Assembly (NCBI GenBank): GCA_946629475.1
Contig: CAMOXX010000002.1
Coordinates: 1-39,683 of the forward strand
Direction of reading: 5' to 3'
Origin: an uncultured Blautia sp.
GTDB taxonomy: Bacteria > Bacillota > Clostridia > Lachnospirales > Lachnospiraceae
DNA length: 39,683 bases
Position 1 is the stretch's first letter; each line of letters opens with the position of its first letter. A program made the translations under genes and the position numbers. Of the stretch, positions 14,374-34,722 are shown in pieces. The notes under the pieces were generated by a model that was not told where the DNA came from, ran no database searches, and worked only from the letters and a program-made list of their open reading frames with translations.

Positions 14374-15459
14374 ATGTATATAGAATCCGTGCAGCTCAAA
14401 AATTTCCGGAATTATGAGTTTCTGGAGATGACTTTTGACCAGGGTACGAATATTCTCTATGGGGATAACGCGCAGGGAAAAACAAATATTCTGGAATCTC
14501 TGTATCTTTGCGGAACGAGCAAATCCCATAAAAGCAGCAAGGATAAGGAGATGATCCGGTTCGGAGAAGAGGAAGCCCATATCAGGCTGTTTGTACGGAA
14601 AAACGGGATTTCCTACAAGATTGACATGCACCTGAAAAAGAATAAGGCAAAAGGGGTTGCTGTCAACGGAATTCCGATCCGCAGGGCAAGGGAGCTTCTG
14701 GGCGTATTGAACCTTGTGTTTTTTTCTCCGGAGGATCTGAATATTATCAAAAGCGGTCCCGCTGACAGAAGAAAATTTATGGATCTGGAGCTCTGCCAGC
14801 TTGAATCCATGTACATTGCGGATATTTCGGCATATAATCACATTCTTCAGCAGAGAAATAAGCTTCTGAAAGATATTTTTTTTAACCCCTCTCTGCAGAG
14901 TACACTGGATATCTGGGATACTCAGCTTGCGGATTACGGAAAAAAGATCATTCTGACAAGAAGGAAATTTATTGAAGAACTGAATTCGGTGATTCATGAT
15001 ATACACAATAATCTGACAGGCGGAAACGAAAAGATAGAAATCGGTTATGAACCGGATGTGACGGAAGATGAGTTTTCTGAAAAGCTGAGATCACTGAGGG
15101 AGAGGGATTTAAAAACCAGGACAACAAACGCCGGCCCTCACAGGGATGATTTTTGTGTGAAAGTCAACGAAATCGATATCAGAAAATTCGGTTCTCAGGG
15201 ACAGCAGCGGACTGCTGCTCTTTCTCTTAAGCTTTCCGAAATATATCTGGTGAAAAAGAGAATTCATGATACTCCTGTTCTGCTCCTGGATGACGTATTA
15301 TCTGAGTTGGACAGCAGCAGGCAGAATTATCTGCTTGACAGCATACATGATATCCAGACGATTATTACCTGCACCGGGCTGGATGATTTTGTAAGCCATC
15401 AGTTTGAAATAAACAGGGTATTTCATGTGGTGAAAGGCAACGTTTTTGAGAAAGAATAA
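14374..15459 (+). CDS. recF: DNA replication/repair protein RecF
   Basis: 361 aa; LKNFRNYEFLEMTFDQGTNILYGDNAQGKTNILESLYL; SQGQQRTAALSLKLSE; LLLDDVLSELD. Confidence 0.98.
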   Translation: MYIESVQLKNFRNYEFLEMTFDQGTNILYGDNAQGKTNILESLYLCGTSKSHKSSKDKEMIRFGEEEAHIRLFVRKNGISYKIDMHLKKNKAKGVAVNGIPIRRARELLGVLNLVFFSPEDLNIIKSGPADRRKFMDLELCQLESMYIADISAYNHILQQRNKLLKDIFFNPSLQSTLDIWDTQLADYGKKIILTRRKFIEELNSVIHDIHNNLTGGNEKIEIGYEPDVTEDEFSEKLRSLRERDLKTRTTNAGPHRDDFCVKVNEIDIRKFGSQGQQRTAALSLKLSEIYLVKKRIHDTPVLLLDDVLSELDSSRQNYLLDSIHDIQTIITCTGLDDFVSHQFEINRVFHVVKGNVFEKE

Positions 15460-15474
15460 TCATTTCTTTCTTTT

Positions 15475-15503
15475 TTGACAAGTATATATGCATGTGATAA
15501 ACT
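15475..15503 (+). promoter_or_regulatory. Candidate promoter for the TPR-acidic-AAA gene
   Basis: TTGACA - 17 bp - TAAACT. Confidence 0.5.
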
Positions 15504-15526
15504 GAAAAGCAACGGTAACTATTTAA

Positions 15527-18500
15527 ATGCAGATACGAAAGTTGGTGAAAATTGTGGATAAAGAGGAATTTCGTATCAAATTAGACCAGATCAATCATCT
15601 TGTTGAGGCAAAGGATTATAAAGGGGCGATGGAAGTAGTCGACAGCATCGACTGGCGCCGTGTGAAAAATGTGCGCACTTTGTGTGTTGTCGGTGAAATT
15701 TATGCCGCAAATAAACGATATGAGGACAGCAGGGATATCTTTCTTTTAGCATATCACAGAGCTTCCATCGGCAAGAATATTCTTGTCCGCCTTGTCGAAG
15801 TTTGTCTTAAAATGAATGAAATTGACGAGGCAATGGAGTATTATGAGGAATTTTGTTCTGTAGCTCCAAACGATAATACAGCCTATATCCTGAGATATAA
15901 AATTCTGAGGGCAAAAAATGCGCCTGTTGAGGATCAGATTCAGGTCCTGGAGGAATATAAAAGCAGGGAATTTACAGAAAAATGGTCTTATGAGCTGGCG
16001 AAGCTTTATTATAAAGCAGGCCTTCAGGATAAGGCAGAAGATACCTGCAGTGAAATTATCCTGTGGTTCAGTGAAGGCAATTATGTGATGAAAGCCTATG
16101 AATTGAAGATGAAAATGGGCGTCATCACGGATTCCGAAAAGCAGCGTTTCGAAGCTTCACAGGCGGAAATCGAAAAAAGTAAAGAAGTTCCGAAGAAAGA
16201 GATTCCAAAAGAGAAAGCTGCAAAGGAGGCAACTCCAAAGGAAGCAGCCTCCAAAGAAAAAGCCTCTGAGGAAGAAACCACAGAGGAAAAGTCTTCTGCA
16301 GAAGAAGCTGCGGAGAAAACAGTTTCTGAAGAAGAAACCGGGGAGGAAGAGTCTTCCACAGAAACGGATTCTGAGAAAATAATCTCCGAAGAGACAGCTC
16401 CTGTGGAAGAAGTCTCTGAGGAAGTTTTGGAGAAAGAGATTCCGGAAGAAGAAACATCAGAGGAAGAGTCTTTCAAAAAGGCAGCTCCGAAAAAAGAGAA
16501 ATTTACAATTGTAGAAGAGATTTCTTCGGAAGAACCTTCCGATGAAGAAGAGACAGAGAATCAGGAAACAGAAGAGCTGCCTGAACCATCAGAGGATCTG
16601 GAGAAAGAAGAATCAGATGAAAGAGAGCCGGAAAAGACAGGATCGGATGATATTGAAGGCGATGAATCCGAAGACGGTGAGGAAATTTCAGAAGAAGCAG
16701 GACAGGAAGACAGCTTCGAAGAAGAAGAGGAGGAAGATAGCTTTGAAGATGCTGAGGAAGCTTTTGAAGATGACGGGTCTCCTCTGATTGACAATATTGA
16801 AATAGACAATGAAAAAGAACTGAAAGAGACGGAAACTCTCTCGGAGAGAATTGTAAAAGGATTGAGGGATCTTTTTGGAGGCCGGAGAAGGGCTGAAGAG
16901 AATGATGAAGAGGAAGATCTCGAAGAAGAGGAAGAGGATGAACTGAAAGAAGAACAGGATGAGGAAATTCAGTTCCCGGATTCTTATGATTCTGATGATG
17001 AAGAGGATGAAGAAGCCGGTTCGGAAATCCCCGAGGATGATTCTGACGAGGACTCTGACGAAGAAAACTATGACGAGGATATCGACGAAGATCTTGAAGA
17101 AGAATTTGACGAAGATTCAGAAGAAGAAGTAATAGAGAAGCCGAAAAAAGAATCGAAAAAGAGAGAATTCCGTTTCCTTCTTCCAAGATCCAGAAAAGCC
17201 CAGAAGGATGTAAAAAAAGATCAGCCGGAGGAAGAGGAGCAGGAGAAGGAAGCCCGGGAGCCGGAAGAGGAATTTAATCTGGAAGATACAATTCTCGCTG
17301 CAGCCTTTGAACAGGGAATCGATATTCCCGGTGCCTCCAACGAAAAAAAGCCTGTGAAGGAAGAAAAAGCATCTGACAGTTCCGAAAGTGTTCCTGAAGA
17401 AGACGATGAAGAACCTGTGATCATCGAAAAGATGATCAATGCAGAGGAAGAAAAATCCATTCAGTCGCTGGAGAAAAAGGCGAAAAAGCTGTCGGAAGAG
17501 AAATCAGAAGATCTGTCGGAGGATGTCCCTGATCTGATTATGCCGGATCTGAATTCTTTAACTGAGGATGAGGACGAAACAGAAGAGGAAATCATCCTGG
17601 AAAAAGAGGAAACGAGTCCGGATGAGGAGAATGATGATTTTGTAGCCGAGATTGTTGAAGGCGAAAATGAAGAAGATATTGATGAGGAGGAATTTCTCAT
17701 CACCGGAGTTATCGGCGAGGACGATGATGAAGATTCCGTGATCATCGATGATGACGAGGATTCTTCGGATGAAGATGAAGATACAATAGAGGATTTTATC
17801 GAATCACTTCAGCCGAGATCACTTGATGATCCTTTGAATATCATTCCCAGGAGCAAGGAACTGACAGAAGAAGAGATTAAGCTGTTCTCCTATTTTGTGA
17901 TTGTTCCCGGTATGAAGGAACAGATTGTGGATGCGCTGTATGATGTACAGATCGAAGCGTCAAAAAGAACATCCAGCGCAGGAAATATCATCGTAATGGG
18001 GGGACCGGAATCCGGAAAGACAAGATTGATTTCGGGTCTGATTCCTGCAATTTGTAAAGAATTGAATCTTGAGGCATCGAAGGTCGCTTATGTTTTTGCG
18101 GAGCAGATTAACGGCAAGGATCTGAAAAAGGTGATTCAGAGACTTTCGGGAGGTTTTCTTGTTATTGAAAACGCGAATCAGCTCGATCAGGAGACGGCCG
18201 CTAAGCTTACAAAGCTCATGGATGGGGATACCCAGGGGATGATCTTTATCCTTGAGGATGATAAGATAGGAATGCGCAAGATGATGGCAAGATATCCGAA
18301 GCTTGCAAAGAAATTTACATCTGTGATCAATATCCCTGTCTTTACGAATGACGAGCTTGCGAATTTCGCGAAAATATACGCGATGGAAAACGGATACCGG
18401 ATTGACAATAAAGGAATGCTTTCTCTTTATAATATGATCAGTATCAACCAGAAAGAGGATATGCCTATGAACATAGGTGCCGTAAAAGAAATGGTTGATG

Positions 18501-18619
18501 CCGCGATTTCGAAGAGTCAGGGAGGTATCGCTCTTTTCCGTAAAAATGCTTCAAAGAAACGCATGGATCAGAATGGATTCATCGTACTGTATGAAAAAGA
18601 CTTTGTAAAAGGAAAATAA
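15527..18619 (+). CDS. Uncharacterised 1030-aa protein: TPR-like N-terminus, very long Glu/Asp-rich region, C-terminal AAA-like P-loop domain
   Basis: N-terminal helical repeats (LVEAKDYKGAMEVVDSI...GEIYAANKRYEDSRDIFLLAYHRA...MNEIDEAMEYYEEFCSVAPND); E/D/S-rich aa about 216-760; Walker A GPESGKT at 18002-18022. Confidence 0.9.
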   Translation: MQIRKLVKIVDKEEFRIKLDQINHLVEAKDYKGAMEVVDSIDWRRVKNVRTLCVVGEIYAANKRYEDSRDIFLLAYHRASIGKNILVRLVEVCLKMNEIDEAMEYYEEFCSVAPNDNTAYILRYKILRAKNAPVEDQIQVLEEYKSREFTEKWSYELAKLYYKAGLQDKAEDTCSEIILWFSEGNYVMKAYELKMKMGVITDSEKQRFEASQAEIEKSKEVPKKEIPKEKAAKEATPKEAASKEKASEEETTEEKSSAEEAAEKTVSEEETGEEESSTETDSEKIISEETAPVEEVSEEVLEKEIPEEETSEEESFKKAAPKKEKFTIVEEISSEEPSDEEETENQETEELPEPSEDLEKEESDEREPEKTGSDDIEGDESEDGEEISEEAGQEDSFEEEEEEDSFEDAEEAFEDDGSPLIDNIEIDNEKELKETETLSERIVKGLRDLFGGRRRAEENDEEEDLEEEEEDELKEEQDEEIQFPDSYDSDDEEDEEAGSEIPEDDSDEDSDEENYDEDIDEDLEEEFDEDSEEEVIEKPKKESKKREFRFLLPRSRKAQKDVKKDQPEEEEQEKEAREPEEEFNLEDTILAAAFEQGIDIPGASNEKKPVKEEKASDSSESVPEEDDEEPVIIEKMINAEEEKSIQSLEKKAKKLSEEKSEDLSEDVPDLIMPDLNSLTEDEDETEEEIILEKEETSPDEENDDFVAEIVEGENEEDIDEEEFLITGVIGEDDDEDSVIIDDDEDSSDEDEDTIEDFIESLQPRSLDDPLNIIPRSKELTEEEIKLFSYFVIVPGMKEQIVDALYDVQIEASKRTSSAGNIIVMGGPESGKTRLISGLIPAICKELNLEASKVAYVFAEQINGKDLKKVIQRLSGGFLVIENANQLDQETAAKLTKLMDGDTQGMIFILEDDKIGMRKMMARYPKLAKKFTSVINIPVFTNDELANFAKIYAMENGYRIDNKGMLSLYNMISINQKEDMPMNIGAVKEMVDAAISKSQGGIALFRKNASKKRMDQNGFIVLYEKDFVKGK

Positions 18620-18639
18620 AACAGAAAGAGAAAAATAAA

Positions 18640-19515
18640 ATGGCCGGACCTTATCTTGGAAATGCAAAGAATACAATGGATGTAATCAGGAGGTATGACT
18701 TTGCTTTCCAGAAGAGGTTCGGCCAGAATTTTCTCATTGATGAGAATATTCTGAAGAAAATTGTCGAGTCTGCGGAAATATCGGGGGATGACTGCGTTCT
18801 GGAAATCGGCCCGGGAATCGGTACTCTGACACAGTATCTTGCGTCGGATGCCGGAAAAGTGATTGCTGTGGAGATTGACAGGAATCTGATTCCTGTTCTG
18901 CATGATACACTGAAGGAATGGAACAACGTCGAAATCATTAATCAGGATATTCTGAAAACAGATCTGTTCAGCCTTGCAGCAGAGAAAAATGACGGGAAGA
19001 ACTTTAAGACCGTAGCAAATCTTCCTTATTACATAACAACTCCGATTATCATGCATCTTCTGGAGAGTAATGTTCCCGTTGATTCCATTACGGTAATGAT
19101 TCAGAAGGAAGTGGCAGAACGCATGCAGGCTGAGCCCGGGAGCAAGGATTACGGGGCTTTGTCTCTTGCTGTGCAGTATTATTCGGAAGCCAGAGTGATC
19201 GTGAAGGTTCCGTGCACTTCATTTATACCCCGCCCGAAGGTTGAGAGTGAGGTTATTCATCTGAAAAAATACAAGGAACCGCCTGTGAAGGTGAGTGACA
19301 GGGATCTGATGTTCAAAATCATCAGGGCATCCTTTAATCAGCGCAGGAAAACTCTGGCCAATGGAATTAAGAATGCTTCCGGTTTAAGCTATACGAGGGA
19401 AAATGTGGAGGATGTGCTGAAAACCTGCGGTTATTCTGCTTCCGTCAGGGGAGAGCAGCTTCCTCTCAGTGATTTTGCGAGAATCACGGATCTGCTGAAA
19501 ATGAGATATTCCTGA
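18640..19515 (+). CDS. rsmA: 16S rRNA (adenine1518/1519-N6)-dimethyltransferase
   Basis: 291 aa; FAFQKRFGQNFLIDENILKKIVE, VLEIGPGIGTLTQYLA, NLPYYITTPIIMHLLE. Confidence 0.98.
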   Translation: MAGPYLGNAKNTMDVIRRYDFAFQKRFGQNFLIDENILKKIVESAEISGDDCVLEIGPGIGTLTQYLASDAGKVIAVEIDRNLIPVLHDTLKEWNNVEIINQDILKTDLFSLAAEKNDGKNFKTVANLPYYITTPIIMHLLESNVPVDSITVMIQKEVAERMQAEPGSKDYGALSLAVQYYSEARVIVKVPCTSFIPRPKVESEVIHLKKYKEPPVKVSDRDLMFKIIRASFNQRRKTLANGIKNASGLSYTRENVEDVLKTCGYSASVRGEQLPLSDFARITDLLKMRYS

Positions 19516-19517
19516 AA

Positions 19518-19560
19518 AGAAAAAAAGTACCCAGTGGAAGAGCTGGATACTTTTTTTCTT
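19518..19560 (+). terminator. Intrinsic terminator after rsmA
   Basis: AAAAAAAGTACCCAG...CTGGATACTTTTTTTC: A-tract/stem/T-tract with one mismatch. Confidence 0.8.
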
Positions 19561-19579
19561 TAAGTTAAAAGGAAGGAGA

Positions 19580-19603
19580 GTTGACAGCTTTGAAACTGTC
19601 AAC
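19580..19603. repeat. Inverted repeat GTTGACAG-N8-CTGTCAAC
   Basis: Perfect 8-bp arms, noncoding, between rsmA terminator and S1-protein promoter. Confidence 0.8.
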
Positions 19604-19617
19604 ATATGAAAAAGAAA

Positions 19618-19650
19618 TATAAAAATAATGTTGGCTATATTATTTTTATA
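19618..19650. repeat. Inverted repeat TATAAAAATAAT-N9-ATTATTTTTATA
   Basis: Perfect 12-bp arms with 9-nt spacer GTTGGCTAT. Confidence 0.85.
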
Positions 19651-19754
19651 TCGTTATTCTAAAGGGAAAATATGAGTAAATAATGATATTTATGTAAACA
19701 AATTATGAACTTAGACGCAATATTTCATGAATAGATTACAATATAATTTCATGT

Positions 19755-19783
19755 TTGTATTTCGCCCTACATGATAGTATAAT
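19755..19783 (+). promoter_or_regulatory. Promoter for S1-domain protein operon
   Basis: TTGTAT - 17 bp - TATAAT. Confidence 0.65.
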
Positions 19784-19851
19784 GATAGTAACTGCCGGGG
19801 TTTTATGCCGGGTGTTGTAATCATATCAATAAATGAAAAGAGGGTATTCCA

Positions 19852-20760
19852 ATGTCAGAGACAATGAAAGATTACGAACAGGAACTGGAAGCTTCCTTCA
19901 AAAAAGTAGAAGAGGGAGATATTTTGAGCGGTACTGTAATCAGCGTAGATGAAAAAGAGGTTGTGATCGACCTCAAGTATTATGCTGAAGGCATTATCCC
20001 CGCAGAAGATTATTCAAGAGAACCCGGTTTCAGTCTTAAGGAACAGGTACATGTTGGGGATGAGGTATCTGCTACCGTCGTCAAAAAAGATGATGGACAT
20101 GGAAATATCCTTCTTTCAAAAGTGGAAGCAAACGATGTTCTTTCCTGGAAAAAGCTGGAGGAACTCAAAAATTCGGGTGAAGTGATCGATGTCACCGTAA
20201 AAGGCGTTGTTAAAGGCGGCGTCATTGCATATGTAGAGGATGTCAGAGGTTTTATTCCCGCATCCAAGCTTTCGGATTCTTATGTTGAGGATACAAATGA
20301 GTATCTTAATAAGACTATCCAGGTTCAGGTGTTTGATGTTGACAAGGAGAAAAACCGCCTGATTCTTTCGGCCCGTGAAGTTCTGAGGAAAAAAGCAGCT
20401 GAGGAGAGAAAGAACAGGATTGCGAGCGTTCAGGTAGGAATGATCACCGAAGGTATTGTTGAGACCATTCAGCCTTACGGAGTATTTGTCAGCCTTGGAA
20501 AAGGACTGTCAGGACTGGTTCATATTTCCCAGATCAGCGAAAAGAGGATCAAGGATCCCTCTGAGGTTCTGGAAAAGGGCGATAAGGTAAAGGTTAAAGT
20601 CATCGGCATCAAGGATGGAAAAATCAGCCTGAGCATGAAACAGGCAGGAAATGAAACTCCTGCGGAGACAGAGAGAGAATTTATTATTGATATTCCGGGA
20701 TCAAATGAGCAGGCTACTACTTCTCTTGCTTCCCTTTTCGCGAATATCAGGCTGGATTGA
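19852..20760 (+). CDS. S1 RNA-binding domain protein (ribosomal protein S1-like, three S1 domains)
   Basis: 302 aa; repeats such as EGDILSGTVISVDEKEVVIDL..., GEVIDVTVKGVVKGGVIAYVEDVRGFIPASKLS, GMITEGIVETIQPYGVFVSLGKGLSGLVHISQIS. Confidence 0.93.
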   Translation: MSETMKDYEQELEASFKKVEEGDILSGTVISVDEKEVVIDLKYYAEGIIPAEDYSREPGFSLKEQVHVGDEVSATVVKKDDGHGNILLSKVEANDVLSWKKLEELKNSGEVIDVTVKGVVKGGVIAYVEDVRGFIPASKLSDSYVEDTNEYLNKTIQVQVFDVDKEKNRLILSAREVLRKKAAEERKNRIASVQVGMITEGIVETIQPYGVFVSLGKGLSGLVHISQISEKRIKDPSEVLEKGDKVKVKVIGIKDGKISLSMKQAGNETPAETEREFIIDIPGSNEQATTSLASLFANIRLD

Positions 20761-20775
20761 CGGAGGACTCTGCCA

Positions 20776-22443
20776 ATGAAGCGACAGGATAAGATTTATA
20801 TCATCGGGCATAAAAACCCTGATACGGATTCAATCTGTTCTGCCATTGCTTATGCAGATATTAAAAACAGGACTACCCAGGGAAAAAAATATATTCCAAA
20901 AAGAGCAGGCCAGCTGAATGAGGAGACAGAGTATGTTCTGAGCCGGTTTGGGGTTCAGCCGCCGGGATATGTTTCTAATATCGGAACTCAGGTGAAGGAT
21001 ATGGAAATCCAGACAAATCCTGAAGCCGACAAATCCATTTCTCTGAAAAATGCCTGGGATCTGATGCAGAGCCAGGGAATCATGACACTTCCGGTCTGCA
21101 ATGAAAAAGGAACGCTGGAAGGGCTCATTACGATCTCTGATATTGCCCAGACATATATGGATACGCAGGACAGTTATCTTCTTTCCAATGCGAGAACACA
21201 GTACCGGAGGATTGCCGAGACGATTGACGGCGTGGTGATCGAAGGCAACGAACATGGCTATTTTATAAAGGGCAAGGTCCTGGTGTGTACGGCACGGCCG
21301 GACATGATGCGGGATTATATCGAGGAAGATGATATGCTCATTGTCGGTGACAGGGAGGAGGACCACCTGGCAGCGATAGAAGAAAATGTGAGCTGTATTA
21401 TTGTTGGAATGGGAATCGAGGTTTCTGATACCGTAAGGAATCTGGCCCGCGAAAAAGATATCGTCATTATCATGTCGCCTTTTGATACTTTTACGATCGC
21501 CAGACTGATCAACCAGAGTATCCCGATCAGGTACATTATGAAGACTGACAACCTGGTCACCTTCAATACAGAGGATTTTACAGATGATATCCAGGAGGTC
21601 ATCGCGAAAAAGAAGCATCATGCATTTCCGGTGATCGACAGTAACGGCAGATGTATCGGAACAATTTCCCGCCGCAATTTCCTCGACATGAGAAGAAAAA
21701 AAGTCATTCTTGTAGATCACAATGAGAGGGACCAGGCGGTAGATAATATTGAAAAGGCCGAAATTCTGGAAATTATCGACCATCATAAGCTGGGATCTCT
21801 CGAGACAAGAACGCCGATTTCGTTCCGAAATGAGCCGGTAGGCTGCACAGCGACGATCCTTTATGAAATATATGGGGATCAGAAGCTTGAAATCCCGGAA
21901 AAAATCGCGGGTCTCCTTTGTTCGGCAATTATTTCGGATACTTTGATGTTCCGGTCTCCGACCTGTACGCTTCGGGATAAAATGGCAGCAGGAGCTCTCG
22001 CTTTGATTGCCGGAATTGATATTGAAAAGCATGCGAAGGACATGTTTAAGGCCGGCAGCAATCTGAAGGATAAAGCGCCGGAAGAAATCTTTTATCAGGA
22101 TTATAAAAAGTTTATCGCGGAGGGCGATATTTCATTCGGTGTCGGACAGATCAGTTCCATGGACGCGGATGAGCTGGTTATGATTAAAGAGAAGCTTCTT
22201 CCATTCCTTGTAAATGAATGCGGAAAACATGATATCAGCAAAGTTTATTTTATGCTGACGAATATTATTGATGAAACAACGGAGCTGATCTTCTATGGAG
22301 AAGGCAGTGAGGAGATGGCTAGCATTGCGTTTAATAAACAGGCGGAAAACGGTTCGTTTATCCTTCCTGGTGTTGTATCCCGCAAAAAACAGCTGATTCC
22401 TGCCATGATGGATGCAGCCTCCCGTATGGAGTCAGGTTTTTAG
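20776..22443 (+). CDS. Family II (Mn-dependent) inorganic pyrophosphatase with CBS and DRTGG regulatory domains
   Basis: 555 aa; IIGHKNPDTDSICSAIAYADIK, CBS segment QGIMTLPVCNEKGTLEGLITISDIA, ILEIIDHHKLGSLETRTPISFRNEPVGCTATILYE, SDTLMFRSPT. Confidence 0.93.
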   Translation: MKRQDKIYIIGHKNPDTDSICSAIAYADIKNRTTQGKKYIPKRAGQLNEETEYVLSRFGVQPPGYVSNIGTQVKDMEIQTNPEADKSISLKNAWDLMQSQGIMTLPVCNEKGTLEGLITISDIAQTYMDTQDSYLLSNARTQYRRIAETIDGVVIEGNEHGYFIKGKVLVCTARPDMMRDYIEEDDMLIVGDREEDHLAAIEENVSCIIVGMGIEVSDTVRNLAREKDIVIIMSPFDTFTIARLINQSIPIRYIMKTDNLVTFNTEDFTDDIQEVIAKKKHHAFPVIDSNGRCIGTISRRNFLDMRRKKVILVDHNERDQAVDNIEKAEILEIIDHHKLGSLETRTPISFRNEPVGCTATILYEIYGDQKLEIPEKIAGLLCSAIISDTLMFRSPTCTLRDKMAAGALALIAGIDIEKHAKDMFKAGSNLKDKAPEEIFYQDYKKFIAEGDISFGVGQISSMDADELVMIKEKLLPFLVNECGKHDISKVYFMLTNIIDETTELIFYGEGSEEMASIAFNKQAENGSFILPGVVSRKKQLIPAMMDAASRMESGF

Positions 22444-22456
22444 GATATTCTGTCCC

Positions 22457-22485
22457 TTGCAATAATCATAGAAAGCTGTTATAAT
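22457..22485 (+). promoter_or_regulatory. murA promoter
   Basis: TTGCAA - 17 bp - TATAAT. Confidence 0.7.
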
Positions 22486-22506
22486 AGCAAATTGATTTTG
22501 TATCTG

Positions 22507-22531
22507 AAATACGAATGAGGGGTTCGTATTT
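22507..22531 (+). promoter_or_regulatory. murA leader hairpin 1
   Basis: AAATACGAA-TGAGGGG-TTCGTATTT, perfect 9-bp stem. Confidence 0.65.
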
Positions 22532-22547
22532 ACACACAGGGGTGTTG

Positions 22548-22567
22548 AAAACGGTTTTTCCGTTTTT
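22548..22567 (+). promoter_or_regulatory. murA leader hairpin 2 (terminator-like)
   Basis: AAAACGG-TTTTT-CCGTTTTT: 7-bp stem, followed by only a short T-tract. Confidence 0.5.
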
Positions 22568-22603
22568 ACAGAATCATGAGGAGTATAATAATAGAGGTGT
22601 AAA

Positions 22604-23896
22604 ATGGAACAGTATATCATTAAAGGCGGTAATCCGCTTGTTGGTGAAGTGGATATTGCCGGAGCAAAGAATGCTGCTCTGGCTATTCTTGCTGCCGCAA
22701 TTATGACAGATGAAACAATTCTGATCGAAAATCTTCCGGATGTAAGGGATATCAATGTTCTTCTGGAAGCGATTGAGGGAATTGGCGCAATTGTCAACAG
22801 AATCGACAGGTCAACAGTTCGAATCAATGGTTCAACGATCCGTGATGTGAGCGTTGATTATGAGTTTATCAAAAAAATCCGTGCCTCTTACTATCTTCTT
22901 GGTGCTCTGCTTGGAAAATACAGACATGCAGAGGTACCTCTTCCGGGCGGCTGCAATATTGGAAGCAGGCCGATCGACCAGCACCTGAAGGGCTTTAAAG
23001 CGCTTGGTGCTGATGTTGATATACTGCACGGAGCGATTATTGCAAAAGCGGACAATCTTCATGGGAGCCATATTTATCTGGATGTGGTCTCGGTTGGCGC
23101 TACGATCAATATTATGATGGCAGCAGCGATGGCTCCCGGAAGAACCACCATTGAAAATGCGGCAAAAGAGCCCCATGTGGTAGACGTTGCTAACTTTTTG
23201 AACAGCATGGGCGCGAATATTAAAGGCGCAGGTACGGATGTGATCCGGATTAAAGGTGTCGAAAAGCTCCATAAAACAGAGTATTCAATTATCCCGGATC
23301 AGATTGAGGCGGGAACATTTATGTTCGCTGCTGCCGCAACCGGCGGAGATATCACGGTGAGAAACGTGATTCCGAAGCATCTCGAAGCTACAACCGCCAA
23401 GCTGGAAGAAATCGGATGTGAGGTGGAAGAGTTTGATGACGCAGTACGCGTCCGGGCTTCCCGCCGTCTGAGAAGAACAAATGTAAAGACTTTGCCCTAT
23501 CCCGGATATCCGACGGATATGCAGCCGCAGATTACGGTTGCGCTTGCACTTGCAAAGGGTACCAGTATTGTAACAGAGAGTATTTTTGAAAACCGCTTTA
23601 AATATGCGGATGAGCTTACCCGGATGGGAGCCCATATTAAAGTCGAAGGAAATTCCGCGATCATTGATGGTGTTGACAGGCTGACAGGAGCCAGGGTCAG
23701 CGCACCGGACCTCCGCGCCGGAGCGGCGCTTGTAATTGCCGGGCTTGCGGCAGAGGGCATCACAATCGTGGATGATATTGTATATATTCAAAGAGGATAT
23801 GAGGATTTTGAAGGAAAGCTGAGAAGTCTCGGTGCCGAGATCGAAAAGGTTTCCAGTGAAAAAGAAATCCGGAAATTTCGTCTTAGAGTAGGGTGA
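22604..23896 (+). CDS. murA: UDP-N-acetylglucosamine 1-carboxyvinyltransferase
   Basis: 430 aa; GEVDIAGAKNAALAILAAAI, PLPGGCNIGSRPIDQHLKG (catalytic Cys retained), YPGYPTDMQPQ. Confidence 0.98.
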   Translation: MEQYIIKGGNPLVGEVDIAGAKNAALAILAAAIMTDETILIENLPDVRDINVLLEAIEGIGAIVNRIDRSTVRINGSTIRDVSVDYEFIKKIRASYYLLGALLGKYRHAEVPLPGGCNIGSRPIDQHLKGFKALGADVDILHGAIIAKADNLHGSHIYLDVVSVGATINIMMAAAMAPGRTTIENAAKEPHVVDVANFLNSMGANIKGAGTDVIRIKGVEKLHKTEYSIIPDQIEAGTFMFAAAATGGDITVRNVIPKHLEATTAKLEEIGCEVEEFDDAVRVRASRRLRRTNVKTLPYPGYPTDMQPQITVALALAKGTSIVTESIFENRFKYADELTRMGAHIKVEGNSAIIDGVDRLTGARVSAPDLRAGAALVIAGLAAEGITIVDDIVYIQRGYEDFEGKLRSLGAEIEKVSSEKEIRKFRLRVG

Positions 23897-23943
23897 GAAT
23901 CTTTTTCTGCCCGAATTGTTTGAAAGGATGACAACATAAAAGT

Positions 23944-25131
23944 ATGGAAAAAATATTGTTTACCTCGGAATCTGTGACAGAAGGGCATCCTGATAAAATC
24001 TGCGACGCGGTGTCAGATGCGATTCTTGATGCATTGCTTGAGCAGGATCCAATGAGCCGTGTGGCGTGTGAAACGGTCACCACAACCGGTATTGTTTTTG
24101 TAATGGGTGAAATCACATCCAGGGCAAATATTGATTATCAGAAGATTGTGAGGGATACGATTCGTGAGATCGGCTATACCAGCGGAGATTACGGATTTGA
24201 CGCGGACACCTGTTCGGTTGTGATTGCTCTGGACAAGCAGTCGGCGGATATCGCGCTTGGAGTAGACAAAGCGTACGAGTTGAAAGAAAACGAGATGAAT
24301 GAGGATGAACTGGATGCGATCGGTGCAGGGGACCAGGGACTCCAGTTCGGCTACGCGACAAACGAAACAGAAGAGTATATGCCTTATGCGATCAATATGG
24401 CGCATAAACTGGCTTATCAGCTTGCAAAGGTCCGCAAAGATGGTACATTAAAGTATCTCAGGCCGGATGGAAAAACGCAGGTGACGGTGGAGTATAATCC
24501 GGATGGTTCACCGAAGAGAATCGACGCGGTGGTCTGCTCGACCCAGCATGATCCGGATGTGACGCAGGAACAGATTCATGAGGACATTAAAAAATATGTT
24601 TTTGATGCGATCATTCCTTCGGATATGGTTGATGAAGACACCAAGTATTTTATCAATCCGACCGGACGTTTTGTGATCGGCGGTCCTCAGGGCGACAGCG
24701 GCCTGACCGGCAGAAAAATCATTGTTGATACCTACGGCGGAACAGGACGCCACGGCGGCGGCGCTTTTTCGGGCAAGGACTGCACCAAGGTTGACCGTTC
24801 GGCAGCATATGCGGCAAGATATGTGGCTAAGAATATTGTAGCTGCCGGCCTTGCCGACAGATGTGAGATACAGTTATCCTATGCGATCGGTGTTGCTCAC
24901 CCGACATCGGTGCGTGTGGATTCTTTTGGAACAGGAAAGCTTGATGACCAGAAGCTGGTGGAGATTATCCGCGAGAATTTTGACCTTCGTCCGGCTGGAA
25001 TTATTAAAATGCTGGATCTGCGTCGTCCGATCTACAAACAGACTTCGTCATATGGTCATTTCGGCCGCACTGATATTTCTCTTCCATGGGAAAAAACAGA
25101 CAAGGCAGAGATTTTAAAAAAGTATCTTTGA
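23944..25131 (+). CDS. metK: S-adenosylmethionine synthetase
   Basis: 395 aa; [60 protein letters not shown]. Confidence 0.99.
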
Positions 25132-25138
25132 GGTGAGG

Positions 25139-25163
25139 GGGACGGTTAAACCGTCCCTTTTTT
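25139..25163 (+). terminator. Intrinsic terminator after metK
   Basis: GGGACGG-TTAAA-CCGTCCC followed by TTTTTT. Confidence 0.88.
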
Positions 25164-25187
25164 CCGTTCCGGAGAGAGGCTGTCCCG

Positions 25188-26336
25188 ATGAAACTGAAAA
25201 CAAGGATGATTACAGGCTTTGTTCTGGTAATTCTGGTTCCACAGCTTTTGCTTGCTGTGGCTTTATTTGCTTACAGCCGCAGTCAGCCTGCGGATTCCGG
25301 AAAAACCGGCATGCATATGGCACAGGAGATTTCGATCTCAGTTCCGGATTCTGATTATAAAACGGTCAGCCTGCGGACGAGGGATATGTTTTTTACACTG
25401 TCGGTGATACTGCTGTTCACTTCGCTGGCGGTAGGCATCTGGATTTACCGGAGCATTTCGGTTCCTCTGATCAAGCTGAAAAAAGCGACGCAGAATATCA
25501 AGGAGGGAAATCTGGATTTTGTGATAGAATCCGATGGAAAAGATGAGTTTTCGGAGCTGTGCAATGATTTTGATGATATGAGGGTCCGGCTTAAGGAATC
25601 AGCAGAAGAAAAGCTTGTCATGGATAAGGAGAATAAGGAGCTGATCAGCAATATCTCCCATGATCTGAAAACGCCGATCACCGCGGTGAAGGGTTATGTG
25701 GAAGGTATTATGGACGGAGTGGCCGATACCCCCGAAAAAATGGATCGTTATATCAAAACGATCTATAATAAAACGATTGAGATGGATCACCTGATCAATG
25801 AACTCACTTTTTATTCCAAGATCGATACGAACAGGATTCCATATACGTTCAGCAAGCTGAATGTGTATGACTATTTTTCGGACTGTGCTGATGAGGTATC
25901 ACTGGAGCTGGAGACAGAAGGAATAAAGCTGCTTTATTCCAATGATGTGGACAGTAATGTGCTGGTAATCGCGGATGGAGAACAGATCAGAAGGGTGATC
26001 CACAATATTATCAGCAATGCCATCAAGTACATGGACAAGCTGAACGGAATTATACAGATCCGCGTCAGGGATGTCGGGGATTTTATCCAGATCGAGATAG
26101 AGGATAATGGAAAAGGAATTGCGTCGAGGGATCTTCCCTATATTTTTGACCGTTTTTACCGGACGGACGTATCCAGAAATTCCTCGAAAGGAGGAAGCGG
26201 AATCGGCCTTTCCATTGTAAGAAAAATTCTGGAAGACCATGGAGGAAAGGTTTGGGCTACCAGCAAGGTCGGGGTTGGGACGACGGTTTATTTTGTACTG
26301 AGAAAATATCAGGAGGTGCCGGTAAACAATGAGTAG
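25188..26336 (+). CDS. Sensor histidine kinase (HAMP, HisKA, HATPase)
   Basis: 382 aa; two TM segments, HAMP, ISNISHDLKTPITAVKGYVEGI (H-box), HNIISNAIKYMD, DNGKGIASRDLPYIFDRFYR, GGSGIGLSIVRKI. Confidence 0.95.
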   Translation: MKLKTRMITGFVLVILVPQLLLAVALFAYSRSQPADSGKTGMHMAQEISISVPDSDYKTVSLRTRDMFFTLSVILLFTSLAVGIWIYRSISVPLIKLKKATQNIKEGNLDFVIESDGKDEFSELCNDFDDMRVRLKESAEEKLVMDKENKELISNISHDLKTPITAVKGYVEGIMDGVADTPEKMDRYIKTIYNKTIEMDHLINELTFYSKIDTNRIPYTFSKLNVYDYFSDCADEVSLELETEGIKLLYSNDVDSNVLVIADGEQIRRVIHNIISNAIKYMDKLNGIIQIRVRDVGDFIQIEIEDNGKGIASRDLPYIFDRFYRTDVSRNSSKGGSGIGLSIVRKILEDHGGKVWATSKVGVGTTVYFVLRKYQEVPVNNE

Positions 26337-27018
26337 AATTCTGATTATTGAGGATGAGGAAGCAATCGCTGATCTGGAGAAGGATTATCTGGAGCTCTCC
26401 GGATTTGATGTGGAGATTGAACATCGCGGAGACCGGGGACTTGAAAAATCATTGAATGAGGATTTTGATCTGATTATTCTGGATCTGATGCTGCCTGAGG
26501 TGGATGGGTTTGATATTTGCCGGCAGGTAAGAGAAAAGAAGAATATTCCGATTATCATGGTATCAGCCAAGAAGGATGATATTGACAAAATCAGGGGTCT
26601 GGGGCTCGGTGCGGATGATTATATGACAAAGCCCTTCAGCCCGAGTGAGCTGGTTGCCCGTGTCAAAGCGCACCTTGAGAGATACAACCGCCTCGTCGGG
26701 TCGGCTCTGCCGAAAAATGACATTATCGAAATCAGAGGGATCAAAATCGATAAAACCGCAAGAAGAGTGTGGGTGAACGGGGAGGAGAAAGCGTTTACCT
26801 CCAAAGAGTTTGACCTCCTCACGTTTCTTGCGGAAAACCCGAACCGTGTATTTCGCAAGGAGGAGCTTTTCCGTGAAATCTGGGATATGGAGTCGGTGGG
26901 GGATATCGCCACTGTCACGGTTCATATCAAAAAGATCAGGGAAAAAATCGAATTCGACACGGCAAAACCACAGTACATTGAGACGATCTGGGGTGTAGGG
27001 TACCGGTTCAAGATGTGA
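26329..27018 (+). CDS. OmpR/PhoB-family response regulator
   Basis: 229 aa; IIEDEEAIADL, LIILDLMLPEVDGFDICRQVR, KPFSPSELVARVKAHL, winged-helix C-terminus ETIWGVGYRFKM; 8-bp overlap with the kinase gene. Confidence 0.97.
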   Translation: MSRILIIEDEEAIADLEKDYLELSGFDVEIEHRGDRGLEKSLNEDFDLIILDLMLPEVDGFDICRQVREKKNIPIIMVSAKKDDIDKIRGLGLGADDYMTKPFSPSELVARVKAHLERYNRLVGSALPKNDIIEIRGIKIDKTARRVWVNGEEKAFTSKEFDLLTFLAENPNRVFRKEELFREIWDMESVGDIATVTVHIKKIREKIEFDTAKPQYIETIWGVGYRFKM

Positions 27019-27024
27019 CGAAGC

Positions 27025-28482
27025 ATGGAAGAATTATATAAAAAGCTGTATTCTTATCATGATAAAGACATTTATCCCTTTCATATGCCGGGACATAAGA
27101 GAAATCCGGCTTTTGAAGCCGGTTTTCTTCCGGTAAAGCAGGATATCACGGAGATTACAGGGTTTGACGATCTTCATCATGCCGAAGATATCATAAAAAA
27201 TGCGCAGGATTTTGCGGCGGAGCTTTTTGGAAGCAGGGAAGTTTTTTTCAGTGTGAATGGTAGTACGGCTGCCATACTTTCTGCGGTGTCTGCTGCCGTC
27301 AGAAGAGGCGGAAAGCTTTTAACAGCACGGAACTGTCACAAATCTCTTTATCATGCCATGTATCTCAGGGAGATTGTCCCTGTTTATATTTATCCCGGGA
27401 TTGACCGTGAGACGGGAATCTGCTGCAGTATTGATCCTGAAGAGACGGAGAGGCTTCTCAGTGAGAATGATGATATTGAAGCGGTTTTTATCACGTCTCC
27501 GACCTATGACGGAGCAGTATCGGATATCCGTGCCATTGCGGAAGCGGCGCACAGGCATTCGGTTCCTCTGATTGTGGATGAGGCGCATGGAGCGCACTTT
27601 TGCTTTTCGCCGTATTTTCCGGAATCGGCGGTAAGGAGCGGAGCGGATATTGTCATTCACAGCATTCACAAAACGCTTCCTTCCATGACAGGCACTTCGG
27701 TGCTGCACAGATGCACCGACAGAATCAGTCATGATAAGATTGCGCGGTTTATGTCGATTTATCAGACCAGCAGCCCTTCGTATCCTATGATGGCGAGTCT
27801 GGATTTCTGTTTTCATTTTTTAAAGGATCAGGGGAAAATCTGGTTTGATGCGTTTACGTCCAGGCTGGAACAGCTTCGAAACGGTCTTTCACAGTTTCAG
27901 AAGATCAGGCTGATGGATTTTTACGGTGCGGAATACAGGAAGCAAAAAGGATTTTATGACTTTGACAGATCAAAAATTCTTTTATCGGCAGACTGTGTAA
28001 AAGGGGGAGGAGCCGGACTTTTCAGAATACTGCAGGAAAAGTACCTGCTGGAACCCGAAATGTCTGCGTACAACTATGTACTTATGATGACGACGATGGG
28101 AGATACGGAGGAAGGCTTCCGGCGGCTGTATGAAGCGGTCTCTGATCTGGAGAATCATCCGGAAATATTTATTTCTGCAAACATGGATGAGCTTTCTCAA
28201 AAACGGTCTGATTTCACGGAGAGGATCAGTGAAAGGCCGGAGCCGGTCATGCGTATTTCGGAAGCGATGGATTCGGAGACAGCTGCGCTTCCGCTGGATC
28301 AATGCGTCGGAAGAATCTCTGCGGAGTTCATGTATCTTTATCCTCCGGGCGTTCCTCTGATTGTACCGGGAGAGAGGATTTCCTTACAGTTTGTGCAGAA
28401 TATGAAAAGGTACGTGTCTGCAGGAATGAAAATTGCGGGAATCCGGGACTGCTCCGGAAAATATATGGATTGTGTTGTGTGA
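27025..28482 (+). CDS. Orn/Lys/Arg decarboxylase family PLP enzyme (YaaO-like)
   Basis: 485 aa; PFHMPGHKRNPAF, FFSVNGSTAAILSAVSAAVRRGGKLL, VDEAHGAHFCFSPYFP, DIVIHSIHKTLPSMTGTSVLH (PLP Lys). Confidence 0.95.
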   Translation: MEELYKKLYSYHDKDIYPFHMPGHKRNPAFEAGFLPVKQDITEITGFDDLHHAEDIIKNAQDFAAELFGSREVFFSVNGSTAAILSAVSAAVRRGGKLLTARNCHKSLYHAMYLREIVPVYIYPGIDRETGICCSIDPEETERLLSENDDIEAVFITSPTYDGAVSDIRAIAEAAHRHSVPLIVDEAHGAHFCFSPYFPESAVRSGADIVIHSIHKTLPSMTGTSVLHRCTDRISHDKIARFMSIYQTSSPSYPMMASLDFCFHFLKDQGKIWFDAFTSRLEQLRNGLSQFQKIRLMDFYGAEYRKQKGFYDFDRSKILLSADCVKGGGAGLFRILQEKYLLEPEMSAYNYVLMMTTMGDTEEGFRRLYEAVSDLENHPEIFISANMDELSQKRSDFTERISERPEPVMRISEAMDSETAALPLDQCVGRISAEFMYLYPPGVPLIVPGERISLQFVQNMKRYVSAGMKIAGIRDCSGKYMDCVV

Positions 28483-28485
28483 ATC

Positions 28486-29082
28486 ATGGGAAAACTATTT
28501 TATATTATGGGGAAAAGCGCTTCCGGCAAGGATTCCTTTTACAGGGAGCTGATGAGGACGGAGAGCCTGGGGCTCCGGAAGCTTATTTTATATACCACCA
28601 GGCCGATGCGCGACGGTGAGGAGAATGGCCGTGAATACTTTTTTGTTACTGCGGAACAGCTTGACTCTTTCAGAAAGCAGGGCAGAATCATCGAGGAAAG
28701 GGAATATCAGACGGTTTACGGCCCCTGGTTTTATTTTACGGCGGATGACGGCCAGATTCACTGGGAGGGGAATGATTACCTGGGAATCGGTACCCTGGAA
28801 TCCTTCTGCGCGCTGAAAGCTTATTACGGAGAGGATAAAATCTGTCCTGTTTATATTGAGGTTGAGGATGGGGAGAGGCTTGCCAGAGCTCTTCGGAGGG
28901 AAAAGGAGCAGATTCACCCTCATTATGCCGAGATGTGCCGGAGATTTCTGGCGGATGAGGAGGACTTTTCGGAGGAAAAGCTGAAAAATGCCGGAATCCA
29001 TGTGCGTTTTGAAAATGCGGATTTTGAAAAATGCATGGAGGAGATCACAGGATATATCCGGCAGTCCCGTTCGCAAAGATAG
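28486..29082 (+). CDS. Guanylate-kinase-like P-loop protein (divergent)
   Basis: 198 aa; MGKLFYIMGKSASGKDSFYREL P-loop, ILYTTRPMRDGEENGREYFFVTAEQLDSFRKQGRIIE resembles the GMP-binding region. Confidence 0.8.
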   Translation: MGKLFYIMGKSASGKDSFYRELMRTESLGLRKLILYTTRPMRDGEENGREYFFVTAEQLDSFRKQGRIIEEREYQTVYGPWFYFTADDGQIHWEGNDYLGIGTLESFCALKAYYGEDKICPVYIEVEDGERLARALRREKEQIHPHYAEMCRRFLADEEDFSEEKLKNAGIHVRFENADFEKCMEEITGYIRQSRSQR

Positions 29083-29141
29083 ACAAAGAAATGGTTTTAT
29101 GTTAAACTGGAATTGGTGATGCTGCAGAAAGGGGTGATTTT

Positions 29142-30131
29142 ATGATAGGCTTCAATGATATTATAGGACATGATGAGATTATACGTCATTTAAAAAATGC
29201 GATTCAATCGGGGAAGGTCTCCCATTCATATCTGATTACAGGTGAAGCGGGTTCAGGCAAAAAAATGATTGCCCGGTCTTTTGCGGCAGCGCTCCAGTGT
29301 GAAAAGGGAGGCGCTGAACCGTGCATGGTCTGCGATTCCTGTAAAAAGGCTATCGGAAATAATCACCCGGATATTATTTTTGTAAAAAACGAAAAACCGG
29401 GAGTTATTGCTGTGGATGAGGTTCGTGAGCAGGTGATTCACGATGTTGTGATTCGTCCTTACTACAGCAAATACAAAATATATATCATTCCTGAAGCCGG
29501 ATTCATGACTCCCGCGGCACAGAATGCCCTTTTGAAGACGATCGAAGAACCTCCGGAATACGCGGTCATTCTTCTGCTGACGAAAAATCCGGAGATGCTT
29601 CTGCCGACCATTTTGTCAAGGTGTGTCCGTCTGGATCTGAAGATTGTGGATGACAGCATTGTCAAGCAGTATCTGATGGAGCATCTTCATATTCCGGATT
29701 ATCAGGCGGAGATCGATACAAGCTTTGCGCACGGAAGCATTGGCAAGGCAAAAGAAGCGGCAACCTCTCAGGAATTTTCGGATATGACCGAAAAGGCGCT
29801 GAAGCTGCTTAAATATTCTGCCGACATGGAGGTTTTTGAGCTCACGGAGGAAATCAAGGACCTGGCTTCCGATAAAACAAAGATTGAGGATTATCTGGAC
29901 GTATTTCAGTTCTGGTTCCGGGATGTTCTGATGTTTAAGGCGACCAGGGAAATTGATAATCTTGTTTTTAAGCAGGAGATCAATGATATCCGGGAGCAGG
30001 CGAGTGCCAGATCCTACGAAAATCTTGAAAAAATACTGGAAGAGATAGACAAAACAAAAGTAAGGCTTCATGCCAATGTTAACCTGGAACTGGCACTGGA
30101 GCTTTTGTTCCTGACAATCAGGGAAAGATAA
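29142..30131 (+). CDS. holB: DNA polymerase III delta' subunit
   Basis: 329 aa; IIGHDEIIRHLKNAIQSGKVSHSYLITGEAGSGKKMIARSFAAAL, Cys cluster CEKGGAEPCMVCDSCKKAIGNNHPD, LLKTIEEPPEYAVILLLTKNPEMLLPTILSRC. Confidence 0.95.
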   Translation: MIGFNDIIGHDEIIRHLKNAIQSGKVSHSYLITGEAGSGKKMIARSFAAALQCEKGGAEPCMVCDSCKKAIGNNHPDIIFVKNEKPGVIAVDEVREQVIHDVVIRPYYSKYKIYIIPEAGFMTPAAQNALLKTIEEPPEYAVILLLTKNPEMLLPTILSRCVRLDLKIVDDSIVKQYLMEHLHIPDYQAEIDTSFAHGSIGKAKEAATSQEFSDMTEKALKLLKYSADMEVFELTEEIKDLASDKTKIEDYLDVFQFWFRDVLMFKATREIDNLVFKQEINDIREQASARSYENLEKILEEIDKTKVRLHANVNLELALELLFLTIRER

Positions 30132-30147
30132 GGAAGTATAAATCAAA

Positions 30148-31092
30148 ATGGCAAAAGTTGTAGGCGTAAGATTTCGGAATGTAGGGAAGATGTACTACTT
30201 TGATCCGAAGGATTATAATATAAAAAGAGGAGACCATGTAATTGTGGAGACCGCGCGGGGCATGGAATATGGCCGCGTGGTTATGGATCCGAAGGAAGTG
30301 GGCGAAAAAGAGCTGGTTCATCCATTGAAAGAGGTGATCCGGCCGGCAACCCAGGAGGATCAGGAGAGAGAAAGCAGGAACCGCGAAAAAGAAAAGGAAG
30401 CGCTGAAAATCTGCCGTCAGAAGATTCGTGAGCATAAGCTCGACATGAAGCTGATTGACGCGGAATATACCTTTGACAACAATAAAGTTCTTTTCTATTT
30501 TACTGCGGATGGCCGGATTGATTTCAGAATGCTGGTCAAGGACCTGGCATCGATTTTCAAAACGAGGATCGAACTCAGGCAGATTGGAGTGAGGGATGAG
30601 ACAAAGATTCTGGGAGGGATCGGAATCTGCGGCAGAGGACTCTGCTGTCATACTTATCTGACCGATTTTGTTCCTGTATCCATCAAGATGGCGAAGGAAC
30701 AGAATCTTTCGCTCAATCAGACGAAGATATCCGGTGTGTGCGGAAGACTGATGTGCTGCCTGAAATATGAGCAGGACACTTACGAAGAGCTGAACAAAAA
30801 GCTGCCTTCGACGGGTGATCAGGTGACGCTTCCGGATGGCTCGCTGGGAACCGTTCACAGTGTGAATGTGCTCCGGCAGCTTGTGATGGTCGTCACCGAA
30901 GAGAATGATGAAAAAGAGATCACGGAATATCCTGTCGGAGACCTGAAGTTCCGTCCCCGCAGGAAAAAAGCGAAGGGTCAGGAAAAAGCAGAAGGAAATG
31001 AACCAAAAGAAGCCAAAGGAAATGTTGAAAAAAAGGGAGATTCCAAAAAGCATGACAGAGATTCCGGTTCGAAAAAACGAGCGAATCGATGA
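30148..31092 (+). CDS. ricT: PSP1-domain protein (RicT/YaaT-like)
   Basis: 314 aa; VVGVRFRNVGKMYYFDP, ETKILGGIGICGRGLCCHTYLTDF, SGVCGRLMCCLKYEQDTYEE; Lys/Glu-rich tail. Confidence 0.93.
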   Translation: MAKVVGVRFRNVGKMYYFDPKDYNIKRGDHVIVETARGMEYGRVVMDPKEVGEKELVHPLKEVIRPATQEDQERESRNREKEKEALKICRQKIREHKLDMKLIDAEYTFDNNKVLFYFTADGRIDFRMLVKDLASIFKTRIELRQIGVRDETKILGGIGICGRGLCCHTYLTDFVPVSIKMAKEQNLSLNQTKISGVCGRLMCCLKYEQDTYEELNKKLPSTGDQVTLPDGSLGTVHSVNVLRQLVMVVTEENDEKEITEYPVGDLKFRPRRKKAKGQEKAEGNEPKEAKGNVEKKGDSKKHDRDSGSKKRANR

Positions 31093-31816
31093 TCTGCAGA
31101 ACGGCTTTTTCATCATACAGGATCCGGCAAAGTTCTGCTTTGGAATGGATGCGGTTCTTCTTTCGGGTTTCGCCTCTGTAAACAAGGGAGAACGGGTTTT
31201 GGATTTGGGAACAGGAACGGGAATCATTCCCGTTCTTCTTTCTTCCAGGACAGAGGGAGAGCATTTCACCGGTATTGAAATTCAGGAAGACTGTGCGGAA
31301 ATGGCGGAGAGAAGCGTCAGGCTGAACCAACTGGAGGACAGGGTTACGATCATTCCGGGCGATTTAAAAAACACAGCTGAACTGTTTGCACCCGGGTCTT
31401 TTGAGGTTGTGACGAGCAATCCCCCTTATATGATCGGAAACCATGGCCTGGAAAACCGGGATATGCCCAAAGCGATCGCGCGTCATGAAATCTGCTGCAG
31501 CCTTGAGGATGTGATAAAAAGCGCGGCTTACGTTCTTTCGAATAAAGGCCGGTTTTACATGGTTCACAGGCCGTTTCGTCTTGTGGAAATATTCGGAGTG
31601 CTGCGAAAGTACCGCCTTGAGCCAAAAAGAATGCAGCTGGTTTATCCTTATGCCGACAGGGAACCGAACATGGTTTTGATTGAGGCGAGAAAAGAAGGGA
31701 ACCCTTATCTCAGGGTGGATAAGCCTCTGATCGTATATGAAAGGCCGGGAGTATACACGAAGTCTGTTCTGGAATATTATCACGATGATGAACTATCCGG
31801 AGAGAATAAAAAATGA
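31052..31816 (+). CDS. tRNA1(Val) (adenine37-N6)-methyltransferase-like protein (YabB/TrmN6 family)
   Basis: TEIPVRKNERIDDLQNGFFIIQDPAKFCFGMDAVLLSGFA, VLDLGTGTGIIPVLLSSR, VVTSNPPYM. ORF opens at 30998; homology-like sequence begins near the Met at 31052. Confidence 0.9.
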   Translation: MTEIPVRKNERIDDLQNGFFIIQDPAKFCFGMDAVLLSGFASVNKGERVLDLGTGTGIIPVLLSSRTEGEHFTGIEIQEDCAEMAERSVRLNQLEDRVTIIPGDLKNTAELFAPGSFEVVTSNPPYMIGNHGLENRDMPKAIARHEICCSLEDVIKSAAYVLSNKGRFYMVHRPFRLVEIFGVLRKYRLEPKRMQLVYPYADREPNMVLIEARKEGNPYLRVDKPLIVYERPGVYTKSVLEYYHDDELSGENKK

Positions 31817-32661: not shown

Positions 32662-32678
32662 CTTTGCCTCTTTTTTTA
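32646..32678 (+). terminator. Intrinsic terminator overlapping the rsmI stop codon
   Basis: AAGAGGTGAAG-AGTAA-CTTTGCCTCTT, with two wobble pairs, followed by a T run. Confidence 0.65.
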
Positions 32679-32687
32679 TGGATTTTA

Positions 32688-32716
32688 TTGGAACAGACGT
32701 CCTTTTGTGTTATAAT
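32688..32716 (+). promoter_or_regulatory. gyrB promoter
   Basis: TTGGAA - 17 bp - TATAAT. Confidence 0.7.
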
Positions 32717-32769
32717 AAAATAGTATTTGTGTGTCTTTAAAACGGCCTTTAACAGTAACCTGCAGATAG

Positions 32770-34707
<1,938 letters not shown>

Positions 34708-34722
34708 TCGGGAGAATATGCA

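Follow-up and report, generated by a model that had tools for sequence, protein, structure and literature searches.

In a 39,683-nucleotide stretch of DNA from an uncultured Blautia sp. (contig CAMOXX010000002.1, assembly GCA_946629475.1; the whole stretch is referred to as the window), the gene lying between recF and rsmA was analyzed. Profile searches indicated that its product is a near-universal single-copy signature protein of the Lachnospiraceae, built of a tetratricopeptide repeat (TPR) head, a long acidic linker and a C-terminal domain of the AAA+ fold with changed motor residues. Confidence in this anatomy and in the AAA+ relationship, taken together, is high. For the role of the protein, a retired AAA+ chaperone working as a scaffold or client-holding chaperone, and not as a motor, is the preferred reading, with a probability of roughly 0.45; confidence in any named client is low. 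The parts of the protein are given below, and amino acid (aa) numbers were counted in the frame from ATG 15527.

15554..18619, + strand: the gene in the recF–rsmA interval, 1021 aa from the likely GTG start, which aligns with TTG/GTG in relatives
15557..16162, + strand: TPR head, six repeats, ~200 aa (Pfam TPR, AlphaFold2, Foldseek)
16172..17836, + strand: acidic linker, aa 216-770 (composition; net charge -181)
16838..16876, + strand: linear motif LSERIVKGLRDLF (family consensus LQEKISKGIRDIF / LQxELAxSIRxI)
17837..18604, + strand: AAA+-fold domain with changed motor residues (TIGR02881, PDB CbbX, AlphaFold2, Foldseek)
17999..18022, + strand: Walker A GGPESGKT, aa 825-832 (GKT in 37/37 close relatives)
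18149..18184, + strand: degenerate Walker B GGFLVIENANQL (clade canonical GGVLFIDEAYSL; Asp absent in 123 distinct sequences)

Folded ends and altered motor residues

An earlier note on this DNA, made from the letters alone, had described TPR-like repeats at aa 1-215 and had proposed profile or structure comparison (HHpred, Foldseek) of the two ends separately. For the head, the Pfam TPR_14 score on aa 1-215 was just over the cut-off, the AlphaFold2 model contained 12 helices forming six TPR-like pairs (predicted local distance difference test, pLDDT, 95.4), and Foldseek matched the model to TPR proteins, e.g., OGT, MamA and PilW, in agreement with the description. For the C-terminus, NCBIfam models of SpoVK (E = 1.3e-7), CbbX (3.9e-6) and EccA (1.5e-4) were matched, all far under the family cut-offs, and a PDB search with a profile of 20 relatives returned CbbX (E = 1e-6) and EccA1 (E = 0.011), superseding a search with the single C-terminal sequence in which PcrA had been the only match (E = 0.15 or worse). 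hhalign against five domains of this clade gave a probability of 98.8, and the best Foldseek match of the AlphaFold2 model (pLDDT 89.8, 57 sequences) was CbbX (E = 3e-12). These sequence and model comparisons solidly indicate an AAA+ fold related to the SpoVK/CbbX/EccA clade, and descent from an AAA+ chaperone of that clade is well supported by them. A defense-system reading was set aside, as PADLOC returned only Csx3-AAA (E = 0.004), limited to the P-loop region.

Residues at the catalytic sites were counted in 123 distinct family sequences. The P-loop reported earlier as GPESGKT was recovered as GGPESGKT; it agrees with the GK[ST] pattern in the window, and the pattern is kept in 97/123 members and not intact in 26/123, which would fit a function other than hydrolysis. 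At Walker B, the Asp-Glu pair is replaced by IEN in the window, and Asp was found in 0/123 sequences, with Glu instead in 108/123. The GY signature of the clade in the sensor-1 region is also absent, these columns holding Asp (109/123) and then mostly Glu (70/123). The first arginine finger is Lys in 84/123 and Arg in 3/123, and of the two aligned Arg of sensor 2 (second arginine finger), the first is mostly Gly, Ala, Asp or Glu and the second Lys in 92/123 and Arg in 13/123. One further aligned column of the C-terminal domain is Tyr in the window, and Asn in 7/101 near and 18/54 far sequences. Because several residues that define the clade were looked for and are replaced, the protein should be called a degenerate relative of the SpoVK/CbbX/EccA clade, and not a SpoVK, CbbX or EccA. 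An AAA+ protein of the same clade encoded in the same genome (L220) keeps the ordinary Walker B and finger residues. L220 (L220:442-2334, G000:C175) is a 630-aa protein with an RNA polymerase alpha C-terminal domain followed by the SpoVK/CbbX-type AAA+ domain.

An alternative in which the AAA+ motor has diverged to unusual catalytic residues yet still works was weighed against these counts. The P-loop is identical in all close relatives (37/37), a Glu stands in for the Walker B Asp in most members (108/123), and the sensor-1 position often holds Asp (109/123). However, changes are present at the Walker B Asp, the arginine finger and sensor 2 alike, and the 26 members whose P-loop is not intact share the C-terminal domain, so that an active ATPase is judged distinctly unlikely. 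The complete loss of the Walker B Asp and the mostly altered other sites, while L220 keeps them, support the retired-chaperone reading.

EccA is the AAA+ chaperone of type VII secretion, CbbX the activase of red-type Rubisco and SpoVK the MurG chaperone of Bacillus subtilis sporulation. Characterized members of this clade are dedicated chaperones of narrow client range with variable N-terminal recruiting domains, and SpoVK depends on Walker A, Walker B and the arginine finger (PMC10659427). EccA has N-terminal TPRs followed by an AAA+ domain of the clade (PMC10659427), and the window protein resembles it in this layout (EccA1, PDB 9lur), with a weak C-terminal profile match (E = 0.011). It differs in the lost clade signature residues and the long acidic linker, in scoring 20.5 bits on TIGR03922 against a cut-off of 466.65, and in having no type VII secretion locus nearby, its neighbors in the window and recurrently elsewhere being housekeeping genes (neighbors annotated in part). 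CbbX (PDB 3zuh, 3syk) gave both the best Foldseek match (3e-12) and the best PDB sequence match (1e-6) of the C-terminal domain, but its solved chains of ~290-310 residues are too short for a TPR head or an acidic linker, and its Walker B region LFIDEA aligns with IENA of the window protein. SpoVK is matched through TIGR02881 (E = 1.3e-7), at 31 bits against an equivalog cut-off of 422.95.

The statement that no characterized system has this architecture therefore needs dividing: TPRs joined to an AAA+ domain of this clade are the EccA layout, while no counterpart was found for the acidic linker combined with disabled motor residues. One-to-one homology to a characterized protein, set beforehand as a refuting outcome, was not found. 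Literature searches on the architecture and on Lachnospiraceae signature proteins returned nothing specific; TPR clusters, which may or may not include this protein, have been described as typical of a gut-restricted subset of Lachnospiraceae (Meehan and Beiko, 2014; PMC3971600). The parts and the parentage are of known kinds; for their combination, and for its occurrence in nearly every member of one major family, no description was found in the literature searched.

The acidic linker and the spread of the family

A tract of about 550 residues rich in Glu, Asp and Ser had been noticed between the two ends, and the composition of aa 216-770 confirmed it: the linker (~560 residues) is 31.0% Glu, 12.3% Asp (together 43%) and 9.0% Ser, with a net charge of -181. 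Such a composition suggests that it is probably disordered. Across 110 family linkers, from which three outlying short ones were excluded, length was 288-1193 residues, Asp plus Glu 18-48% (median 30%) and net charge -28 to -270. Both ends aligned closely in 36 additional Blautia-type sequences, a few of which are contig fragments, and the linker in these (288-634 residues) retained chiefly its acidity. Linker length and sequence turn over across relatives and acidity persists.

Within the linker, a 13-residue motif recurs as LQEKISKGIRDIF in the near clade and as LQxELAxSIRxI farther out; in the window it reads LSERIVKGLRDLF and is followed by GGRRR. It was found in 67/110 linkers (42/44 near, 25/66 far) against ~0.2 expected from shuffled linkers (~0.1 for each group), at a median position one-sixth of the way into the linker. 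The regular expression was composed after examples had been viewed and related sequences are not independent, and the margin over the shuffles is large. From its residue pattern the motif is probably an amphipathic helix, for which the TPR groove, a partner or a membrane may be the docking site. A second motif, TGQMxIxDILxEWE, was present in 14/66 far members (e.g., L166, L194, L218) and in none of the near (Blautia-type) clade linkers, that of the window included.

Against the closest relative (L071), dN (nonsynonymous divergence) was 0.06 for the head, 0.12 for the C-terminal domain and 0.46 for the linker, and dN/dS, with dS (synonymous divergence) near saturation, was ~0.03 for the TPR domain and ~0.08 for the C-terminal domain. 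By these measures the open reading frame is a true coding gene under strong purifying selection. Its presence in 238/248 family genomes supports the same conclusion, and selection and conservation together contradict non-translation, which had been named in advance as a second refuting outcome.

The TPR profile matched 238/248 Lachnospiraceae genomes at 1e-8, almost all of different genera, with one copy in all but one of the matching genomes. The ten family genomes with no match (G745, G779, G801, G810, G827, G840, G841, G868, G871 and G873; ≥95% complete) may reflect loss, divergence or assembly gaps, between which the search does not distinguish. At E 0.001 the C-terminal profile matched 210/393 genomes of the order; its strong matches lay within the family of the window, and the few in other families were weak. 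Among 345 genomes outside the family in a sample of the phylum, zero matched the TPR profile. A family member in G146 (L241) lies in a 2474-aa frame, much of it masked, that includes a TPR head and an AAA-like segment; it is uninterpretable in this form and was not used.

In a sample of the class (293 genomes), the TPR profile had one match outside the family, a 1341-aa protein of genome G590, which belongs to another family of the class (L246:1536-5558, minus strand). The family profile matched its TPR head at 5e-13 (hhalign E = 4e-9), and this head is followed by four AAA+ domains of the SpoVK/CbbX type, of which the first is partly degenerate. The protein differs from that of the window in that three of these four domains carry the canonical residues at the Walker B and sensor sites and no acidic linker is present, and it is a single example: a wider search of its class for TPR plus AAA+ relatives returned AAA+ matches only and no second TPR match. 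The TPR plus four AAA+ arrangement is likely the parental layout, and the simplest reading, with G590 as the one outsider on which it rests, is that a TPR plus AAA+ chaperone was the ancestor and that the Lachnospiraceae gained the linker and lost the motor residues. Independent joining of similar domains in the family and in G590 is a possible alternative.

Genomic position and expression signals

The slot directly after recF (14374-15459) was as the earlier note had placed it. In the window, dnaA, dnaN and recF lie on the 5' side of the gene, and rsmA (18640-19515), a three-domain S1 protein, a DHH/CBS/DRTGG pyrophosphatase and murA follow on the 3' side. Across the Blautia-type clade the order dnaA-dnaN-recF-X-rsmA, where X is this gene, was constant wherever the contig reached. 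The idea that this position hints at function was not supported by the synteny survey: in the other loci examined, outside the clade, dnaA was not found near the gene. Since the gene there lies elsewhere, mostly beside rsmA and/or glgB, the origin-side position is, on this survey, a trait of Blautia and near relatives and not a key to family function.

A replication-origin or chromosome factor, in which the acidic tract would mimic DNA and bind DnaA, HU or SMC-type proteins, could appeal to the constant gene order in the Blautia-type clade and to recR, which lies near upstream in seven other loci. The origin slot is confined to that clade, however, and the protein is conserved though its gene lies elsewhere; moreover, no DNA-mimic fold appeared among the Foldseek matches of the two folded ends. 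This alternative is regarded as very unlikely, and it was dropped in the light of the survey.

In the loci from L114 on, rsmA was near in 34, on the 3' side in some and the 5' side in others; glgB was directly 3' in 34, often ≤60 bp away, and glgP was just 5' in nine. Other recurrent neighbors were recR, transketolase (tkt) and tatD. Neighbor gene names were confirmed on one representative each. On a tree of both conserved domains these contexts cluster, yet at least 23 changes are needed. A glycogen-related factor, e.g., a scaffold for glycogen enzymes, would fit the glgB and glgP neighbors but not the Blautia-type loci and several other clades, which have no nearby glycogen gene, and Pfam and NCBIfam scans detected no carbohydrate-binding domain in the protein; it is given little probability. 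As leads, rsmA and glgB are of about equal frequency.

The signals around the gene in the window were as follows.

15475..15503, + strand: sigma-A type promoter-like site, TTGACA-17-TAAACT with TG before the second hexamer (consensus scan)
15538..15548, + strand: Shine-Dalgarno-like AAAGTTGGTGA; AAAG[TA]TGGTGA just 5' of the aligned start codon in 34/41 loci
18640..19515, + strand: rsmA (ksgA), TIGR00755, after a 20-nt gap
19531-19546: terminator-like hairpin 3' of rsmA

The longer open reading frame, 15527-18619 on the + strand, has 1030 codons, and its ATG at 15527 had been taken as the start. In an upstream alignment, Val10 of this frame coincides with TTG/GTG in relatives, several of which have a stop codon just 5', and the AAAG(T/A)TGGTGA element precedes it in 34/41 loci. 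The true start is probably GTG 15554, replacing ATG 15527, which is unlikely to be used. TTGACA with a -10-like hexamer was found 5' of the gene in 33/41 Blautia-type loci against 0.035 in shuffles, at mostly similar spacing to the gene. Because of the promoter-like site and the hairpin, the gene and rsmA are probably transcribed together, as a unit distinct from that of recF.

Farther off in the window, gyrB and gyrA occupy 32782-37251. recF and gyrB are frequently adjacent at bacterial origins; here they are separated by ~17 kb (15460-32781), an interval that includes this gene, rsmA, the S1 protein, the pyrophosphatase, murA, SAM synthetase, a sensor histidine kinase and an Orn/Lys/Arg decarboxylase.

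Proposed role and its meaning for the family

Because the motor residues are lost while both folded ends are under strong selection, the protein most likely works by binding. As a retired chaperone, its TPR head would dock a specific partner, the acidic tether would hold basic, nucleic-acid-binding clients or space the two ends, and the C-terminal domain would serve as an oligomerization or binding platform that, in members retaining the P-loop, would take nucleotide as a ligand. The protein would act in a housekeeping assembly step. Besides the altered motor residues, this reading draws on the fold and homology of both ends, the presence in 238/248 family genomes, the layout of the G590 protein, the narrow client range of characterized clade members and the acidity that persists in a changing linker. 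A ribosomal setting, suggested by the recurrent neighbor rsmA, is a lead only.

A more specific form of this proposal is a ribosome-assembly or ribosomal-protein chaperone acting with RsmA, in which the tether would keep basic ribosomal proteins shielded, with the TPR head attached to the 30S precursor. It would account for rsmA recurring as a neighbor on separate parts of the family tree, both as X-rsmA and as rsmA-X, for the likely operon of the gene with rsmA in the window and for an acidic charge that suits basic clients. Many members, however, are not beside rsmA and have glgB, recR or tkt instead; genes for housekeeping tasks can adjoin with no function in common, and the adjacency may go back to a single ancestral event with later rearrangements. 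This form is considered unlikely.

Several points weigh against the retired-chaperone reading as a whole. The gene context, divided among rsmA, glgB and glgP, does not point to a single pathway. Loss of catalytic motifs predicts loss of hydrolysis and does not prove it, and Mg might still be bound by the Glu that stands at the Walker B Asp position.

Lachnospiraceae abound in the human gut, and a single-copy protein present in nearly all of them, matched in none of the 345 other genomes of the phylum sample and with no function found described, is a clear gap. With its many sampled members, the family is a natural example of motor residues being lost from an AAA+ domain while the folded ends are strongly selected, and of a long acidic bacterial linker conserving its composition and one short motif. 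Tentatively, and with the odds somewhat against it, the protein may be a core, family-defining one, an AAA+ chaperone turned into a non-motor scaffold with an acidic tether of ~300-1200 residues, which would carry out an essential assembly step that other Clostridia do otherwise or do not need.
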